Assembly (NCBI GenBank): GCA_005888095.1
Contig: VBKF01000097.1
Span: 1 to 64,000, forward strand
Reading direction: 5' to 3'
DNA length: 64,000 bases
From: Deltaproteobacteria bacterium
Lineage (GTDB): Bacteria; Desulfobacterota; Binatia; DP-6
The translations under genes and the position numbers were made by a program. The notes beneath the pieces were generated by a model. The model was not told the DNA's origin. It made no database searches and was given only the letters and a program-made list of their open reading frames with translations. Shown piece by piece: positions 53,181 through 61,409 of this stretch; the first letter of the stretch is position 1, and every line of letters starts with the position of its first letter.

Positions 53181-54458
53181 TCAGCGCTGGACAACGACCG
53201 GCAGCGGGGAGTCTCGCTGCATCGGTCGGGGTCCGGTCCGGACCGCCGACCGCACGAGCCGCGCCCGCCCGCCGTCGCCCGCCCAGGTGAGCCCCCAGCC
53301 CCTGCTCACCGCCAGCACGAGCGTCATGCCCCATACGCAGACGGCCGAGAGCGCCAGGAGGCCGGTCGCATAGGTACCCGTGATGTCCTTGAGCATGCCC
53401 AGGATGGACGGGAGGAGGAAGCCCCCGAGGCCTCCTGCGGCGCCGACCAAGCCGGTGATCACCCCGATCTCCCTTTGAAAGCGCAGCGGCACGAGCTGGA
53501 AGACGGAACCGTTGCCCGCGCCGAGCAGAGCGAGCGCGGCGAAGAAGAGCGCCGTCGCGAGCCAGAGGGGAGGCAGGCTCGCAACGCCGAGGAGAAGCAG
53601 GGCCACGGCAGCGTAGAGTACCGTCAGCACGCGGATGCCGCCCTGGCGGTCGGCGAGCAGCCCGCCGATCGGCCGCATGAAGCTGCCCGCGAACACGCAG
53701 AGCGCGGTGAGGTCGCCAGCGGCGACCTTGCCCACCCCGTACTGGTCGTGGAAGAAGATGCCGAGAAAGCTCGCCAGGCCGACGAAGCCGCCGAAGGTGA
53801 TGCCGTAGAAGAGGCAGAACCAGAGCGTGTCGAGCTCCCTCAGCAGGGCGGCGTAGTCGCGGAAGCGCCTCGGCGCCGGCTGGCTCGAGCTGTCCCGGGC
53901 GCAGAGGAAGAAGACGACGGCCGCGACCGCCATCGGCACCGTCGCGAGCCCCATCGCCGCGCGCCAACCGAACGCCGCGGCCAGCCGCGGCATGAAGAGC
54001 GCGGCGAGCACGGTGCCCGAGTTCCCCGCACCCGCGATCCCCATGGCGAGGCCCTGGTGCTCCGGCGGATACCAGCGTGAGACGAGCGGCAGCGCAACGG
54101 CGAAGCTCGCGCCCGGCACGCCGAGCAGCACGGCGACCGTGAAGAGACGCCCGAGGGAATCGGCGAAGAGCCAGCCGAGGAGCAGCGGCACGAAGGTCAG
54201 GGCGATGCCGACGAGCCCCGTGCGGCGCGGGCCGAGGTGGTCGGTGAGCCCGCCCATCACGACGCGAAAGATCGACCCCCCGAGCAGCGGGGTCGCGACC
54301 AGGATGCCCTTCCACGTCGCGTCGAGCCTGAAGTCCTCGGCGATGAAGTTGCCGAGCGGCCCGAGTAGCGACCAGACGCAGAAGCTCAGGTCGAAGTAGA
54401 GGAAGGCGGCGACGAGCGTGGGCCAGTGACCGGCCTGCTTGAACGCCCTCAAGCTCAT
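53181..54458 (-). CDS. narK: Nitrate/nitrite MFS transporter (NarK/NasA, NNP family)
   Basis: 425 residues, about 12 membrane helices. The first helix has AFLYFDLSFCVWSLLGPLGN. NNP signatures with nitrate-binding glycines appear as AMGIAGAGNSGTVLAALFMP (helix 5) and ALLGAGNGSVFQLVPLRFQR (helix 11); Arg in FRVVMGGLTDHLGPR and GSFMRPIGGLLADR are the usual anion-contacting residues. It imports nitrate (or exchanges it for nitrite) across the inner membrane. The ATG overlaps the Rieske gene stop (ATGA), tying import to the reductase operon. The C-terminal ~35 residues are hydrophilic. Confidence 0.93.
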   Translation of the reverse strand: MSLRAFKQAGHWPTLVAAFLYFDLSFCVWSLLGPLGNFIAEDFRLDATWKGILVATPLLGGSIFRVVMGGLTDHLGPRRTGLVGIALTFVPLLLGWLFADSLGRLFTVAVLLGVPGASFAVALPLVSRWYPPEHQGLAMGIAGAGNSGTVLAALFMPRLAAAFGWRAAMGLATVPMAVAAVVFFLCARDSSSQPAPRRFRDYAALLRELDTLWFCLFYGITFGGFVGLASFLGIFFHDQYGVGKVAAGDLTALCVFAGSFMRPIGGLLADRQGGIRVLTVLYAAVALLLLGVASLPPLWLATALFFAALALLGAGNGSVFQLVPLRFQREIGVITGLVGAAGGLGGFLLPSILGMLKDITGTYATGLLALSAVCVWGMTLVLAVSRGWGLTWAGDGGRARLVRSAVRTGPRPMQRDSPLPVVVQR

Positions 54459-54889
54459 GACGCCGCCACTCGCACGGCCGTGAGACCCCGCCGCGGCGGG
54501 CCGAACAGCACCCGGCCGGTCCGCGCGTCGAAGGCCGCGCGGTGACAGGGGCACTCGAAGCGCGCGCGCTCGGCCGACCAGAGCACGGGGCAGCCGAGGT
54601 GGGGGCAGCGCCGGTCGAACGCCACCACGGAGCGGGGATCGAGCCGGACCACGAGGATCTCGCGCCGATCGTCGGAGGACCCTAGCGTGCGGGCCTCGCC
54701 CGGAGGCAGCTCGACACCGTCAGGGAGATGGATCGCCTCGAGCGGCCCGGGCTCGGAGAGCCGCTGCCCGATCCATTCGCCGCCCAGGGCGAGCACTGCG
54801 GTTGCCCCGGCGGCTTTGAGGAAGCGCCGGCGATCGAGGCGACGCTCGTCCGCCAGCGCAACGGGGAAAGGGTCTCGCTTCTTCAACAC
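54455..54889 (-). CDS. TAT-exported Rieske [2Fe-2S] protein
   Basis: About 144 residues with GTG start (GAGGAGG upstream); TTG one codon on is an alternative. The N-terminus [20 protein letters not shown] is a twin-arginine signal or anchor. The Rieske cluster site is [13 protein letters not shown] (C-x-H) and [11 protein letters not shown] (C-x2-H). It therefore sits on the outer side of the membrane, unlike the soluble NasG-type Rieske ferredoxins of assimilatory systems. It lies between the ferredoxin gene (7-base overlap) and narK (4-base overlap). With the NarI-like subunit it may form a quinol-oxidising module for nitrate reduction. Confidence 0.9.
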
Positions 54890-55509
54890 AGCGCCTCCTC
54901 GAGATGCTGCTCGGCGGGCGTGCGCGGCGGCCGCTCCGTCGGGGTGACCGCGAGTACCCGGGTGTGGGCGGGTACCATCAGGTGGTTCTTCGTGCGCACG
55001 ACCTCGTCGCCGAACTCGAAGACGTTGAGCGACCGCGCCGAGCGCAGGTCCTCGACCTCTTCGCGGGTGCCGAAGAACAGCGCGCCCGACGGGCAGACGG
55101 TGGCGCACATGGGCTTCAAGTCCACGGAGGTCCGGTCGTAGCAGAGGTCGCACTTCATCATGAGGTCGCGCGCGGCGTGGAGCTCCGGCACGCCGAAGGG
55201 GCAGGCGAGCACGCAGTTGCCGCACCCGATGCACCGCTCGGCCATCGCCGTGAGGACGACGCCGTCGGGGTCGACCTTGATGGCGTCGGCCGGGCAGACG
55301 CTCGCGCACGCCGGGTCCTCGCAGTGCATGCACACCGTGGGCGCGGTCTGCACCGACGTCGCGCGCTCGAGGAAGTCGAGGTGGATCATGGTGTGGCCAC
55401 CGTGGCCGGGGCACTCGCTGCACGCCTCCTCGCAGGCCCGGCAGCCGATGCAGCGGTTCGGGTCGATGAAGAGCTCGCCGGTCAATCGATGTCCTTCGCT
55501 CACGCTCAC
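54883..55509 (-). CDS. Four-cluster ferredoxin subunit (DmsB/PsrB/NrfC-like)
   Basis: About 208 residues. Four Cys groups: [53 protein letters not shown] and [10 protein letters not shown]...[10 protein letters not shown], the pattern of electron-transfer subunits of membrane molybdoenzymes (four [4Fe-4S]). No signal peptide, so cytoplasmic, like the NasC partner. The start is ambiguous: a 24-bp tandem repeat carries two AAGGA sites, serving GTG 55509 (MSVSEGHRL...) or TTG 55485 (MTGELFIDP). It should bridge NasC and the membrane subunit. Confidence 0.93.
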
Positions 55510-55534
55510 GCGATGTCCTTCGCTCACGCTCACG
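55487..55534. repeat. 24-bp tandem duplication containing stop-SD strings, copies 2 and 3
   Basis: CGATGTCCTTCGCTCACGCTCACG occurs twice exactly head to tail. On the minus strand each unit contains TGAGCGTGAGCGAAGGA. The first copy closes nasC with its TGA, and each copy offers an AAGGA for a ferredoxin start (GTG 55509 or TTG 55485). Confidence 0.85.
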
Positions 55535-57701
55535 CGGGCAGCCTTTCGATCCGCACGGCGGCCACCTTGAACTCGGGGATGCCCGCGATCGGGTCGTAGG
55601 CGCGGAGCGTCAGGCGGTTGGCCGAGCGCTCGCCCGGCCAGTGGTAGGGGATGAAGACCGTGTCGGGGCGGATCGTCGCCACGACGTGCGCCGCGAGGTC
55701 GAGATGACCGCGCCGGCTCGAGACGCGGACCCGGTCGCCGTCGCACACGCCGAGCCGCCCGGCGAGCTTCGGGTGCAACTCGACCTTCGGCTCGGGGTAC
55801 TGGTCAACGAGCGGCCCGATGCGTCGGGTCTGCGTGCCGGAGAGAAACTGAGAGACCACGCGACCCGTGGTGAGGATGATCGGATAGTCGGCGTCGACGT
55901 CCTCGGCCGGCGGGCGGTACTCGACGGCGTGGAAGCGGGCGCGGCCGTCGGGATGGTGGAAGCGCCCCCCTTCAAAGAGGCGCGGCGTCCCAGGGTGGTC
56001 GGCGTCCGGGCAGGGCCAGAAGACGCCCATCTGCCGCTCGATCTTCTCGTAGGTGATGCCGGAGTAGTCGGCCACGCCGCCGCGCGACACCCGGGTGAGC
56101 TCGGCGAAGATGTGGGAGGGCGAGTGGAAGTCGAACTGATGGCCCTTTCCGAGCCTGCGGGCCAGGTCGCAGATGATCCGCCAGTCGGCGCGGGCCTCCC
56201 CGGGCGGGTCGACCGCCTTGCGGATGCGGATCACTCGCCCCTCGGTGCTCGTGACAGTGCCCTCGTCCTCCTCGTGCAGCGAGCCCGGGAGGACCAGGTC
56301 CGCGTGGCGCGCCGTCTCCGAGAGGAAGAAGTCGATGGCGACGAAGAAGTCGAGCCGCTCGAGGGCCTCCTGCGTGAACGTGGCGTCCGGCAGGGAGACC
56401 AGCGGGTTGAAGCAGATGGAGACGAGGCCGCGGATCTCCCCGCGGTGGATCATCTCCACGATCTCGGGGGCGGTCGCCCCCTTGCCGGGCAGCGCGCTCT
56501 CGGCGACGCTCCAGGCCGCGGCCACCTCGGCCCGGTGCGCCGGGTTCTCGATGTCGCGCGCCCCCGGGAGCTGATTGCAGCGCTGGCCCTGCTCGCGTGC
56601 CCCCTGGCCGTTGCCCTGCCCGGTGATCGTCGCGTAGCCCGAGCCCGGCTTGCCGATCTTGCCGGTGGCGAGCACGAGGTTGATGCAGGCCAGCACGTTC
56701 TCGACGCCCTTGGTGTGGTGCTCGATGCCGCGCGCGTGGAGCAGCATGGTGCGCGGCGCCTGCACCCACAGCTCGGCCGCCTCGACGATGCGTCGCGCGG
56801 GGATGCCCACCAGCTGCTCCACGGTCTCGGGCGCGTAGCGTTCGACGAGGGCTCGCACCTCGTCGAAGCCCGTCGTGTGCCGCTCGACGAAGTCGTGGTC
56901 CACGCCGCCGAGCCGGATGACCGCGTGCAGGATGGCGTTCATCAGCGCCGAGTCTCGCCCGGGGCGCACCGGCAGGTAGAGGTCGGCGGTGCGGGCGATG
57001 GGGGTGAGGCGCGGGTCGACGACGACGAGCTTCGCGCCCCGGTCGCGCGCCCGCCAGATGTAGTCGGTGGTGATGGGGCTGCACTCCGAGACGTTCGAGC
57101 CGAGCACCATCACGAGGTCGGTGCTCACGATGTCGGCCCACGGGTTGGCCGCACGGTCGATGCCGAAGGCCCGCAGGTTGCCGGCCCCCGCGGCGACCAT
57201 GCAGAGGCGCCCGTTGTAGTCGATGTGCCGCGTGCCGACCGCGAGGCGCGCGAACTTGCCCATCAGGTACGCCTTCTCGTTGGTGAGCGACGCACCGGAG
57301 AGCACGGCGACGCTGTCCCGCCCGTAGCGGGCCTGGAGGCGCCCGACGCGCTCGGCGACGAGGTCGAGGGCCTCGTCCCACGGGATGCGGCCGAAGCCGC
57401 GGCCGGTGCGCACGAGCGGGTGGAGCAGGCGGTCGGGGTGGTTGTTCTGGAGATAGCGCTTGATGCCCTTCGGGCAGAGCTTCCCCTGGTTGAACGGGAA
57501 CTCCTCCCAGGGCTCGATGCCGACCACGCGCTCGTCCTTCACGAGCAGCGTGACGCCGCACTGCTGACCGCAGAAGCAGCAGTGCGTGTTGACCTTCCTG
57601 TCGGGCGCGGCACGGGCGGCGAAGCCGCCGGGTGGCTCGTAGCTGAGGTGGGGGCCGAAGGCGTCGGCGAGCGCCTCGGCCGGAGCGGGGAGACGCGCCA
57701 T
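55530..57701 (-). CDS. nasC: Nitrate reductase catalytic subunit, NasC/NarB type (molybdopterin oxidoreductase)
   Basis: 723 residues. The N-terminal [4Fe-4S] site is [20 protein letters not shown] with the fourth Cys in [12 protein letters not shown]. Molybdopterin domains follow: [80 protein letters not shown] and [20 protein letters not shown]. It ends with [20 protein letters not shown] and a C-terminal beta-barrel. There is no TAT signal, so it is cytoplasmic. Sequence and the adjacent nirA favour assimilatory nitrate reductase; formate dehydrogenase-like activity cannot be excluded by eye. The [2Fe-2S] tail of Klebsiella NasA is absent. Confidence 0.9.
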
Positions 57702-57703
57702 CC

Positions 57704-58732
57704 CTACGCCGCCTCCGGGCGGGCCGCCGACGCCGCGGGCCGCGGCTGGAACTGCGCGCCGAGGAGCTCGGCCTGTGCGGTCGCCACCTGGCGGCGCCGG
57801 CAGGCCGGGCACCGGCGCTGATGGCGGGCGAAGCGGAAGCCGCGCGCAGCCAGGAGCCGCTCGACGGCATCGCGCTGGGCGACGGGCGCCAGCGGCGCGC
57901 CGCAGCCGATGCAGCCCGCCCGGAGAGCTCCCGGTGCGCGTACGAGCTGTGCGCCCACGTGAAGCGGGCGGATCAGGAGGTGCGCGAGCTTCGTGAACGG
58001 GAGCGCCAGGAGGAGCGCGACGACCGAGACCTCGTGCACGAGCGCGGCGGCCCGGAAGAGCCCGGGCAAGCCGCTCCGGCCGGCGGCGGGCAACGCGAGT
58101 CCGCTGAGGGCCACTGCTAGGAGGAGGAGCAACGGGGCCAGGTGGAAGCCGGCGGTCTCGTGCGCCCCGCCGCGCGCCCGCAGGCGGACCAGGAGGAAGT
58201 ACGTCGCTCCGAGTGCGACGGCGACCGCCGCCAGGGAGAGCCCGTGAAACACGAGCCAGCCTACGACCCCTTCGGGGGCGAAGCGGACGACCGGTACGGC
58301 GACCAGGATCGCGCGGTAGGAGCGGCCGCCGTCGGCCTCGAAGCGGAGCCAGCCCCAGACGAGCGGCAGCGTGATCGCGAAGCTGACGAGCGTGCCGACA
58401 GAGAGGAGCAGGTGGGCGAGCCAACGTACCCGGGAGCGCCGGGCGATGAAGCGTTGCGCCGCGAGGTCGCGTCCCGCCGCGCCGAGCAGCCGGCGGAGCT
58501 CGCGCGGGCGGCGTACGGCCTCGAGCAGCGCCCGGGCGTAGAAGGCCGACGGCGGGCGGCGCCAGAAGGCGCTCGTCCGGTAAACGGTCACGAAGCAGGC
58601 GGCCACGGTGGCCGCGAGGTAGCCGAGCAGGGCCGCGTCGAGATGTGCGAGGCCGGACGAGCCGCCGTAGACGGCCGCGAGGAGCAGCGCCGTGGCCAGG
58701 GCCGCGTCCCGAAGCGGAAGCCAGCGGCTCAC
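57704..58732 (-). CDS. NarI/DsrM-like membrane subunit with C-terminal zinc-ribbon
   Basis: 342 residues with a GTG start inside the nirA stop (GTGA). About six membrane helices carry His at spacings suited to b-type haem: [40 protein letters not shown], and [20 protein letters not shown] followed by HLL. This resembles the cytochrome b subunits NarI and DsrM/HdrE. After residue ~270 a soluble tail has CIGCG and CPACRRR, a likely zinc-ribbon or rubredoxin-like site not usual in NarI. It would pass electrons from quinol to the cytoplasmic ferredoxin and NasC. Two bases separate it from nasC. Confidence 0.75.
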
Positions 58733-60225
58733 TGCGTCCTCGCGCGCGCGACCCGCTGCTTTGGAAAGAAGCGGGCGAGGTACTCGAGGACCTCCGGCAG
58801 GTCCGAGAGCGGCACGTTCTCCATGATCCGCTGCCCGGGACGGGGCTCGGGGCCGCTCCGCCCGCCGACCCACACGTCCACCGCCTCCACCACCTTGTTG
58901 TTCACGCGCACCTTTGTGCCCTCGAAGCCGATATCGGCGAGCTGATGGTTCCCGCAGCCGGCGGGACACCCCGACCAGTGCATGCGCAGCGGCTCCTTGC
59001 GATCCGCGAGCCTGGCGGCCAGCGCACGGGTCATGGGCAGCGCCCGCGCCTTCGTGTCGATGAGCGCGAGATCGCAGAAGTCGATGCCCGTGCAGACCAC
59101 GAACCCCCGCAGGATCTCCGGCGGGTTGTAGGGCAGCTCCTTGAGGAGCGGCTCCTGCGTGAGCTCGCGCAGGCCTGGGTCACTGATGTTCGGGATGATC
59201 AGGTTCTGCTCCGTGGTGAAGCGCACCTCACCGCTGCCGTAGGTCTCCGCGAGGCGGGCCACCTCGGCGAGCTGCACCGCGGTCACGCGCCCGCCGGGGA
59301 CGACCACGCCGACGAAGCTGCGCCCGTCCTTCTGCCGGTAGATGCCGACGTGGTCGGTCCGGTTCGGGCCGCGCGCGTCCTCGCCGGCGGGCTCGAGCGA
59401 CCGCCCGCAGGCCTCCTCGACGGCCGCCCGCACGCGTGCGACCCCCCAATCGTCGACCAGGAACGCGAAGCGGCTGCGGTTCCGCGCCTCGCGCGGGCCC
59501 TGGTCCCGGAACACCCGGACGATGGCCGCCGCAACCTCCGCCGCGGCCGCGGGCTCGACGAAGACGTCGAGCGGGTCGGCGCGGCGATAGCCGCCCGAGC
59601 CCATCTTCCCGCCCACGAGCACGTTCAGGCCGACCCGCTCGCCCTTCCGCGCGGGCACCATGGCGACGTCCTGGCTCTCCGCGCCGACGCAGTTCTCGGG
59701 GCAGCCCGTGATGGCAACGTTGAACTTGCGGGGGAGGTTCGTGTAGGCACGGCTCCCGACGAAGAGCCGGGTGAACTCGCGCGCTGCCGGCGACGCGTCG
59801 AACAGCTCGCGCGGCGTGAGGCCGGCCACCGGGCAGCCGATCACGTTGCGAACGTTGTCCATGCCGGTCTGGAGGGAGGTCAAGCCGACGGCCTCGAGCT
59901 GCGCGAACACCGCGGGGATTCCGTCGATGCGGACGCTGCGGAGCTGGACCTGCTGGCGGGTGGTGATGTCCGCGAAGCCGGCGCCCAGCTCCTGCGTGAT
60001 CTCCGCCAGCGTGTGCACCTGCTGTGCAGTCGCGATCCCGTTCGTGATGCGGATGCGCATCATGAAGAAGCCGGGCGTGTGCTTGCGGAAGAAGACGCCG
60101 TACCACTTCATGAGCGCCTTGTCCCGCTCGCTGATCGAGTCGGGGCCCTCCCGGCTGTAGCGCTCGATCTCGGGCAGGACGTCGAGCCCGTCCTTCTCCC
60201 GCTTGAAGTCCTCGATACGGTTCAT
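58729..60225 (-). CDS. nirA: Ferredoxin-dependent nitrite reductase
   Basis: 498 residues. The duplicated nitrite/sulfite reductase fold is visible. The N-terminal half has [20 protein letters not shown] and [20 protein letters not shown]. The C-terminal siroheme/[4Fe-4S] site has [16 protein letters not shown] and [20 protein letters not shown], supplying four Cys with one bridging siroheme. It reduces nitrite to ammonium with six electrons, usually from ferredoxin. Position next to NasC and NarK favours nitrite over sulfite. It heads the operon, about 80 bases after a sigma54-type promoter. Confidence 0.93.
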
Positions 60226-60331: not shown

Positions 60332-60506
60332 CGCAGGGCCGAGCCCCAATCGCCGTCGCCGTATCCGGCGTGCCAAATCTCCGACATCGTCGTGATGCTC
60401 AAGAGCGGAGCAGCGGGCTGCTCGCTCAGGCGGCACGCGGCGCGGCCGCTTCGTATTCGTTCCGGCAATGCTACGCGTGGCAGTTCGTAATGGGAGGAGT
60501 TCGCGC

Positions 60507-61409
60507 ATGCTCGAGACAAGGCCGCTGCTCATCTTCAAGACCATCGTCGACGTCGGCAGCTTCACGCGTGCCGGGGTGCGGCTCGGCCTGAGCCAGCCGG
60601 CGATCAGCCAGCACATCCGGGCGCTCGAGCGGGAGGTCGGGGCGCCGCTCCTCGTGCGGCTCGGAAAGAGCGCCAAGCCGACGCCGCAGGGCGAGATGCT
60701 GCTCCACTACGCCCGCCACGTGCTCGGCAAGATCGAGGAGGTCGAGCGCCTGCTCGCCGAGGCGGCCGACGGCCGGACGGGCGTGCTGCGCATCGGCGCC
60801 GGCGGCGCCGCGTGCCAGCATCTCTTGCCGGGCGTGCTGCGCGAGTTCCGCAGCCGGTTCCCGAAGGTCGACCTGCACGTCCGCAGCGGCTACACCCAGC
60901 TCACCCTCGGCCGGGTGCTCGACGGCGACCTCGATGTCGGGCTGGTGACGCTGCCGCTCAGGGCCCCGCAGGTACGCGTCACCGAGGTGGGCCGGGACGA
61001 GCTGGTCGTCATCGTGCCCCCCCAACACCCGTGGGCGGCCCGGCGGCGGGTCCCGGCCGGCGAACTTGCCGGAAAGCCGCTCGTGCTCTACGAGCGGCAG
61101 AGCCAGGCGACCGACCTGATCATGCGCGCGCTGCTCGAGCAGGGCGTCTTTCCGCGCATCACGATGGAGATCGATCAGATGGACGCCGTGAAGGAGATGG
61201 TGCGGCTCGGGCTCGGCTTGGCCGTGGTCCCGGAGTGGGCCGTGCGGCGCGAGGTGGGCGCCGGCGCGCTCCATGCCGTGTCGCTGGGTAAGGCGGGGCT
61301 GTGGCGCGCGTGGGGCCTCGCCTGCCTGGAGCAGCTGCTGCCGTCCCCGTCGCTGCGCGCGTTCGTCCGTCTTTGCACCGAGCACCTGCCGCGCGCACTG
61401 GCGGCGTGA
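60507..61409 (+). CDS. LysR family transcriptional regulator
   Basis: 300 residues. The N-terminal winged helix-turn-helix has LLIFKTIVDVGSFTRAGVRL and LSQPAISQHIRALEREVGAP. The effector domain starts near residue 90 (GVLRIGAGGAACQHLLPGVL) and continues with VGLVTLPLRAPQVRVTEVGR and LGLGLAVVPEWAVRRE. GGGAGGAG before the ATG confirms the start. Divergent from the nirA operon, the usual arrangement for LysR proteins and their targets. It probably senses a nitrogen metabolite such as nitrite or 2-oxoglutarate, by analogy with NtcB and Nac; the ligand is inference. Confidence 0.93.
   Translation: MLETRPLLIFKTIVDVGSFTRAGVRLGLSQPAISQHIRALEREVGAPLLVRLGKSAKPTPQGEMLLHYARHVLGKIEEVERLLAEAADGRTGVLRIGAGGAACQHLLPGVLREFRSRFPKVDLHVRSGYTQLTLGRVLDGDLDVGLVTLPLRAPQVRVTEVGRDELVVIVPPQHPWAARRRVPAGELAGKPLVLYERQSQATDLIMRALLEQGVFPRITMEIDQMDAVKEMVRLGLGLAVVPEWAVRREVGAGALHAVSLGKAGLWRAWGLACLEQLLPSPSLRAFVRLCTEHLPRALAA

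Follow-up and report, generated by a model that had tools for sequence, protein, structure and literature searches.

A NasC-Type Molybdoenzyme Cassette with NarI-like, Four-Cluster Ferredoxin and Rieske Partners: A Likely Quinol-Linked Nitrate Reductase

Introduction

Assimilatory nitrate reductases of the NasC, NasA and NarB kind are cytoplasmic enzymes that receive their electrons from an NADH flavoprotein or a soluble ferredoxin. NasC/NasA-type sequences account for 18.6% of MopB hits (PMC10100899), and NasA/NasC is said to function exclusively in assimilation (PMC7331816). The same survey, from 2020, found no member of the clade of NasA/NasC, AioA, NapA and one formate dehydrogenase lineage with the canonical four-cluster or anchor subunits (PMC7331816). 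Here we describe a six-gene operon at positions 53181-60225 of the minus strand of a 64,000-nucleotide stretch (the window) from contig VBKF01000097.1, which belongs to the genome of a Binatia-type “Deltaproteobacteria” bacterium from soil. In this operon, the gene for a NasC-type enzyme is flanked by genes for a NarI-like membrane subunit, a ferredoxin-type iron–sulfur (FeS) subunit with four [4Fe-4S] clusters, and an exported Rieske [2Fe-2S] protein. Since these partners are present in 52 of 53 loci, the cassette is, by gene content, a clear exception to the survey’s statement. We consider it likely that the four genes encode one membrane-bound, quinol-linked nitrate reductase with a NasC-derived catalytic subunit, serving assimilation in the window and probably respiration or redox disposal elsewhere.

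The window enzyme shares with Bacillus NasC, Paracoccus NasC and cyanobacterial NarB its family, the Cys-Met site, the GQxN...GRE motif, the N-terminal [4Fe-4S] motif and a cytoplasmic location, and the window shares the NarK-NasC-NirA pathway with the assimilatory NasC/NasA/NarB systems. It departs from all of these in its dedicated four-cluster ferredoxin, NarI-like anchor and exported Rieske protein. NarGHI has a similar plan, namely a cytoplasmic molybdenum subunit, a four-cluster ferredoxin and a subunit of NarI fold whose last-helix His pair has the same 18-residue spacing. The cassette differs from NarGHI in having a NasC-lineage catalytic subunit with a Cys ligand, no NarJ in the operon, and an added Rieske protein; its membrane subunit has an extra N-terminal helix and a four-Cys tail, and one of the haem ligands of NarI is not conserved in place. 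AioAB and IdrAB likewise join a molybdenum enzyme of the NasC-AioA branch to a Rieske partner exported by twin-arginine translocation (TAT), with a similar Rieske fold. Unlike them, the cassette has a Cys ligand and no export signal on the molybdenum subunit, and it adds a four-cluster ferredoxin as well as a membrane subunit. Finally, QmoC, DsrM, HdrE and EtfD share the NarI-type fold, but they partner Hdr- or Etf-type proteins rather than a nitrate reductase with molybdenum bis-pyranopterin guanine dinucleotide (Mo-bisPGD), and the C-terminal four-Cys domain differs. Each part of the cassette is of a known kind and the combination is new. The partnership seems to be undescribed: no description of the arrangement, of DUF6755 (a frequent neighbour, see below) or of a quinol-linked Nas was found in the open literature, which is weak evidence because most subscription journals lie outside it.

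Conservation of the Four-Gene Core

The genes are transcribed in the order nirA, NarI-like, nasC, FeS, Rieske, narK. The nirA stop codon overlaps the next start by 4 bp (GTGA), the NarI-like gene and nasC are 2 bp apart, nasC and the FeS gene overlap by 4 bp provided that the latter starts at 55533, and the last two overlaps measure 7 bp (FeS/Rieske) and 4 bp (Rieske/narK). With all five junctions overlapping or 2 bp apart, the genes are arranged like a single, translationally coupled operon, as the first-pass annotation of the window had described them, and all six are present where it had placed them.

An alignment of the NarI-like protein was scanned against 84,980 species genomes, giving 543 candidate loci, of which 80 were kept. 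In 87 of 93 loci, the gene immediately after the NarI-like one is nasC. Among the 53 loci that extend 5 kb or more to both sides, 52 have the complete core NarI-like-NasC-FeS-Rieske, which places the cassette far beyond chance. Its hosts belong to about nine phyla: the Binatia-type “Deltaproteobacteria”, Acidobacteria, Planctomycetes (Phycisphaerae), Armatimonadetes, Chloroflexi (Herpetosiphon), Melainabacteria, Actinobacteria (Catellatospora), Myxococcota and Deinococcus. On Deinococcus plasmids, its genes are annotated as “MFS transporter” (for major facilitator superfamily), “molybdopterin oxidoreductase”, “4Fe-4S dicluster”, “Rieske” and “DUF6755”. The pairwise distance matrices of the four core proteins correlate with r of 0.69-0.93, a level reached by 0 of 500 permutations, as for a unit inherited together. 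The first-pass point that NasC is teamed with a NarI-like anchor, a ferredoxin of four clusters and a Rieske protein in the periplasm is supported. The order of these four genes recurs in other genomes; the nitrite reductase beside them is mostly NirB in the window’s lineage and is missing elsewhere (0 of 44 loci).

The cassette is patchy, and so a phylum-wide sample gave, besides the window’s own protein, four weak remote matches to the NarI-like protein, none with a NasC partner; in a class-level sample, the protein occurs in 18 of 78. No relatives of the cassette were found on viral contigs.

The Catalytic Subunit

The nasC gene (55530..57701, minus strand) encodes a Mo-bisPGD catalytic subunit of 723 residues. 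No signal peptide is seen, a CxxCxxxC motif for a [4Fe-4S] cluster lies at the N-terminus, and Cys167, followed by Met, is the likely molybdenum ligand. The best NCBIfam model is NF047855, with 791 bits, against 625 bits for formate dehydrogenase alpha, both below their cut-offs; with the NarG model TIGR01580, the protein scores 72 bits against a cut-off of 1084, and hence it is not NarG. Its active-site motifs, RLCM and GQxNGQGGREHG, match those of the Nas and NapA references, whereas the formate dehydrogenase references have RLCH, or Gln after the ligand as in ForC, and GQNNVQGAxDxG (GAxDxG or close variants). Met follows the Cys ligand in the window enzyme and in all the relatives listed, in keeping with the Met or Thr of the NasC/NasA/NarB lineage.

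A careful maximum-likelihood tree of 35 proteins with 200 bootstrap trees was accompanied by a quick tree of 72 rows. In the former, the NarI-linked NasC proteins form a single clade (100/99) that is present in 200 of the 200 bootstrap trees, showing a single origin at the level of the protein tree. Its sister is a pair (99/94; joined at 100/100) of NasC proteins linked to NirBD, those of Pyrinomonas and Deinococcus actinosclerus. The formate dehydrogenases fall outside the nitrate reductases at 100/100, and the quick tree concurs. Grouping with formate dehydrogenases, named beforehand as an outcome that would refute the first-pass reading, is thus excluded by both the tree and the nitrate-reductase motifs.

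The Membrane Subunit

The NarI-like gene (57704..58732, minus strand) encodes 342 residues, laid out as an extra N-terminal helix, NarI-like helices carrying H107, H163, H233 and H251, and a C-terminal four-Cys domain. No Pfam family matched the protein, its sole model match was a weak one to QmoC (24 bits), and a sequence search of solved structures gave zero matches, even at E 1. The identification as NarI-like comes from the predicted fold and a profile alignment. An AlphaFold2 model built with 57 aligned relatives has a predicted local distance difference test score (pLDDT) of 92, and in a Foldseek search the Escherichia coli NarI chains occupy ranks 1-8 with probabilities of 0.98-1.00. 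VIA-align places EtfD first (Z 10.7) and NarI next (Z 9.6-9.8), the following rows reaching at most 8.1, although Z values of such size could by themselves reflect common helix packing. The profile alignment, which is independent of the fold matches, supports the likeness beyond mere packing: it pairs H233 and H251 with H187 and H205 of NarI, the helix-V His pair, which are haem ligands there.

H107, H233 and H251 are invariant among the 57 relatives, while H163, in the next helix, is nearly invariant but replaced by Asn in some. Given the pairing of H233 and H251 with the NarI ligands and the invariance of the three His residues, the subunit likely carries a haem b and may carry two. The zinc-ribbon tail that had been suggested for the protein holds as a sequence feature: C274, C277, C308 and C311 of this putative ribbon are invariant in the 57 relatives.

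The Ferredoxin and Rieske Subunits

The FeS subunit (54883..55533, minus strand; at most 216 residues) is of the FdnH/DmsB/HybA type, with best scores to the HybA, FdnH and DmsB models. Seventeen Cys residues are invariant in 82 sequences, which is sufficient for four clusters. Its start may be the TTG at 55485 rather than 55533, as relatives start at the equivalent of 55485. A tandem 24-bp repeat, GTGAGCGTGAGCGAAGGACATCGC (copy 2 ends in A), occupies 55486-55533 of the minus strand at the nasC/ferredoxin junction and contains several in-frame starts.

The Rieske protein (54455..54889, minus strand; 144 residues) has the motif CPHLGC...CPCH and, as is typical of Rieske proteins that are exported, an additional pair of Cys residues; it scores as a member of the bc1/b6f-like family. 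C95, H97, C100, C113 and C115 are invariant in 78 sequences, and H116 is present in at least 90% of them. A twin-arginine motif is found in 71 of the 78 relatives, and the window protein, with its twin-arginine signal/anchor helix, matches the TAT model. The predicted structure (pLDDT 87.7) has a single anchor helix at 20-44, and its fold matches the Chlorobaculum Rieske protein, AioB and the b6f/bc1 Rieske proteins. From this fold and the Cys pair, we infer that the protein is probably of the exported, high-potential kind, not of the NirD kind.

Genomic Settings

The cassette occurs in two settings, which were counted in 13 loci of the window’s lineage (the window’s class and nearest kin) and 44 other loci, each with at least 4 kb on either side, a nitrite reductase being counted within 9 kb. 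NirA or NirB lies near the cassette in 11 of the 13 window-lineage loci, often with Nrt or NarK, and in 0 of the 44 others. The neighbours in those 44, typed with a limited query set, include NarK (33), DUF6755 (27), RIC (15), Rrf2 (8), TehA (8), Crp (7) and YwiC (7); DUF6755 was identified by profile, and the others are presumably what their names say, having been named by eye from representative sequences. DUF6755 (PF20540), a small membrane protein, is a frequent fifth member, found in 37 of 71 loci outside the window’s class (e.g., L131:13458-13799) and undetected in loci of the window’s class by the same search.

In the window, nirA (58729..60225, minus strand) encodes a siroheme nitrite reductase of the ferredoxin type (498 residues; PF01077 and PF03460 each matched twice), scoring 533 bits with the ferredoxin-nitrite reductase model NF007125 versus 194 with the best sulfite reductase model. 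The narK product (53181..54458, minus strand; 425 residues) is a nitrate/nitrite transporter of the major facilitator superfamily (TIGR00886, 283 bits). The profile scores uphold the family identities first assigned to NirA, NarK, NasC, FeS and Rieske. The source genome measures 5.46 Mb in 271 contigs, with an estimated completeness of 100%. Its Molybdopterin-family proteins include no NarG, NapA or second Nas, the others being YdeP-like, formate dehydrogenase/Phs/Qrc-like and a NuoFG fusion. A search for siroheme reductases returned two, the window’s NirA and a second, more distant protein, and no NirB. Accordingly, the path from nitrate to ammonium would rest on this operon, whose NasC has no NADH donor of the NirB type available. 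The earlier statement that no NADH flavoprotein is encoded is therefore right for the source genome and does not extend to the lineage, in which most relatives have NADH-dependent NirB.

Outside the window’s class, the picture is different. A siroheme nitrite or sulfite reductase is absent from 16 of the 44 genomes, whose completeness is not stated. NarG is present in 12 of the 44 and absent from 32, and hence the cassette is mostly no companion of NarG. Copper nitrite reductase (NirK) exceeds the cut-off in just 2 of the 44, so NirK-based denitrification is not a general trait of these genomes. Herpetosiphon genomes have a separate conventional nirA-nasA-nrtA-nrtB set apart from the cassette, and Pyrinomonas has a narK-nasC-nirB-like-nirB-nirD operon elsewhere, whose NasC is a nearest sister of the NarI-linked clade; in these hosts, the cassette is not the sole nitrate reductase for assimilation. 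In this ordinary nas operon of Pyrinomonas methylaliphatogenes (L173:1755-9537), the gene for a separate flavoprotein of the NirB type lies between nasC and nirBD. Because nitrite-assimilation neighbours are lacking in all 44 loci, separate nas operons exist, and RIC, Rrf2, Crp and YwiC lie beside the cassette, its role outside the window’s lineage is probably nitrate respiration or redox disposal. The first-pass label “assimilatory” would then suit the window’s lineage and not the module as a whole.

One genome of the window’s class (G335) carries two cassettes, L036 and L041, of different subclades. One is of the window type; the other groups with Deinococcus and has no nitrite reductase beside it. 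This suggests two roles in one cell.

Proposed Electron Pathway and Alternatives

In the pathway that we propose, the exported Rieske protein and the NarI-like b-type subunit would be the first to accept electrons from quinol, which is oxidised at the membrane. From there, electrons would move inward via haem b to the cytoplasmic four-cluster ferredoxin, and from its clusters to the [4Fe-4S] cluster of NasC and the Mo-bisPGD, the cytoplasmic site at which nitrate would be reduced to nitrite. Joined in the window to uptake by NarK and to NirA, the cassette would serve nitrate assimilation there. For its catalytic subunit, it would have drawn on the cytoplasmic lineage of NasC. The steps at the NarI-like and FeS subunits are those of the established NarGHI design, and the Rieske step is, to our knowledge, new to nitrate reductases. 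Since the nitrate/nitrite couple lies at about +430 mV (PMC10100899), quinol oxidation with nitrate would be strongly downhill.

Several points weigh against the pathway. A NarGHI-type chain needs no Rieske protein, and the pathway gives the Rieske electron no defined acceptor. The catalytic subunit, at 791 bits, falls short of the curated equivalog cut-off of NF047855, which is 1100. The Foldseek E-values for NarI are weak (0.03-0.14), and the membrane subunit shows no clear counterpart to one of the two helix-II His residues of NarI, whose two haems b are each held by His residues of helices II and V; H163 may stand in for it, leaving the second haem uncertain. The gene content would also be compatible with a ferredoxin donor for NasC. 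In Paracoccus, NirB feeds NasC through NasG (PMC3475470), and an NADH-dependent NirB is present in 10 of the 13 window-lineage loci.

The alternative that survives best, though we regard it as unlikely, keeps the complex and changes its donor. A periplasmic high-potential carrier, either cytochrome c or a cupredoxin, would receive electrons from bc1 or alternative complex III and feed the Rieske protein, which would pass them inward through the haem b subunit. It would account for the exported Rieske protein, the feature that NarGHI lacks, and among the nearest Rieske folds is AioB, an electron-exchange partner of cytochrome c. With a nitrate/nitrite potential of about +430 mV (PMC10100899), a high-potential donor would suffice. 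Against this, the NarI-like fold is that of a quinol-oxidising subunit, the Rieske proteins of bc1/b6f oxidise quinol themselves, and the limited query set used for neighbours turned up no cytochrome c in the cassettes.

It is somewhat less probable that NasC uses the usual soluble ferredoxin or NADH flavoprotein, the NarI-like, FeS and Rieske proteins being another route that shares the operon and feeds, for example, NirA. NirA requires reduced ferredoxin, as such a route would provide. Moreover, NirB, the NasC feeder of Paracoccus (PMC3475470), adjoins the cassette in most relatives within the window’s lineage. Yet the four genes stay together where there is no nearby nitrite reductase (0 of 44 loci) or no siroheme reductase at all (16 of 44 genomes), the source genome lacks NirB, and Herpetosiphon and Pyrinomonas keep their ordinary NasC/NasA without these partners.

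A formate dehydrogenase like FdnGHI, feeding the quinone pool, would agree with the best-scoring models of the FeS subunit and with the solved structures closest in sequence to the catalytic subunit, which are formate dehydrogenases. This identity is ruled out by Met in place of His or Gln after the Cys ligand, GREHG in place of GAxDxG, and the 100/100 split in the tree, and the association with NarK, Nrt, NirA and NirB also speaks against it; we give it hardly any weight. Equally improbable is an enzyme working in reverse from nitrite to nitrate with electrons flowing outward, as a cytoplasmic molybdenum site and a periplasmic Rieske protein could on paper run both ways, but the reduction of quinone or Rieske by nitrite would be uphill, and the neighbours are those of nitrate uptake and nitrite reduction in the window’s lineage and RIC and Rrf2 elsewhere.

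Returning to the quinol-linked complex, it is tempting to propose, and we incline slightly towards it, that the cassette represents a widespread class of quinol-linked nitrate reductase with an origin independent of NarGHI and NapABC. NasC would have been captured once by a module made up of the NarI-like, four-cluster ferredoxin and periplasmic Rieske proteins, the enzyme would be respiratory in many phyla, and a Binatia-like lineage would have added NirA or NirB, making the quinone pool the electron source for nitrate assimilation. If so, an unrecorded membrane nitrate reductase is present in many genomes of Acidobacteria, Planctomycetes, Armatimonadetes, Chloroflexi and Deinococcus, where pipelines label it “molybdopterin oxidoreductase” or “assimilatory nitrate reductase”. 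Nitrate respiration in soil would then be undercounted and assimilation overcounted, and the NarGHI design would have had a second origin. The cultured hosts, Herpetosiphon, Pyrinomonas and Deinococcus, make the cassette directly testable.

Additional Features

A LysR-family regulator gene, recognised by a domain match, lies divergently upstream of the operon (60468..61409, plus strand). In three relatives’ loci (L032, L034 and L037), the nitrite reductase gene likewise has a LysR gene divergent from it, and the window’s regulator probably controls the operon.

In three other loci (L068, L071 and L081), the RIC and Rrf2 genes near the cassette have another NasC-like molybdenum-enzyme match upstream of them, on the opposite strand. 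Elsewhere in the source genome (L187:5337-9950, contig C177), an open reading frame of 954 residues for a NuoF-NuoG fusion stands beside a NirA-like siroheme reductase of 555 residues, possibly an arrangement for an NADH-linked sulfite or nitrite reductase.

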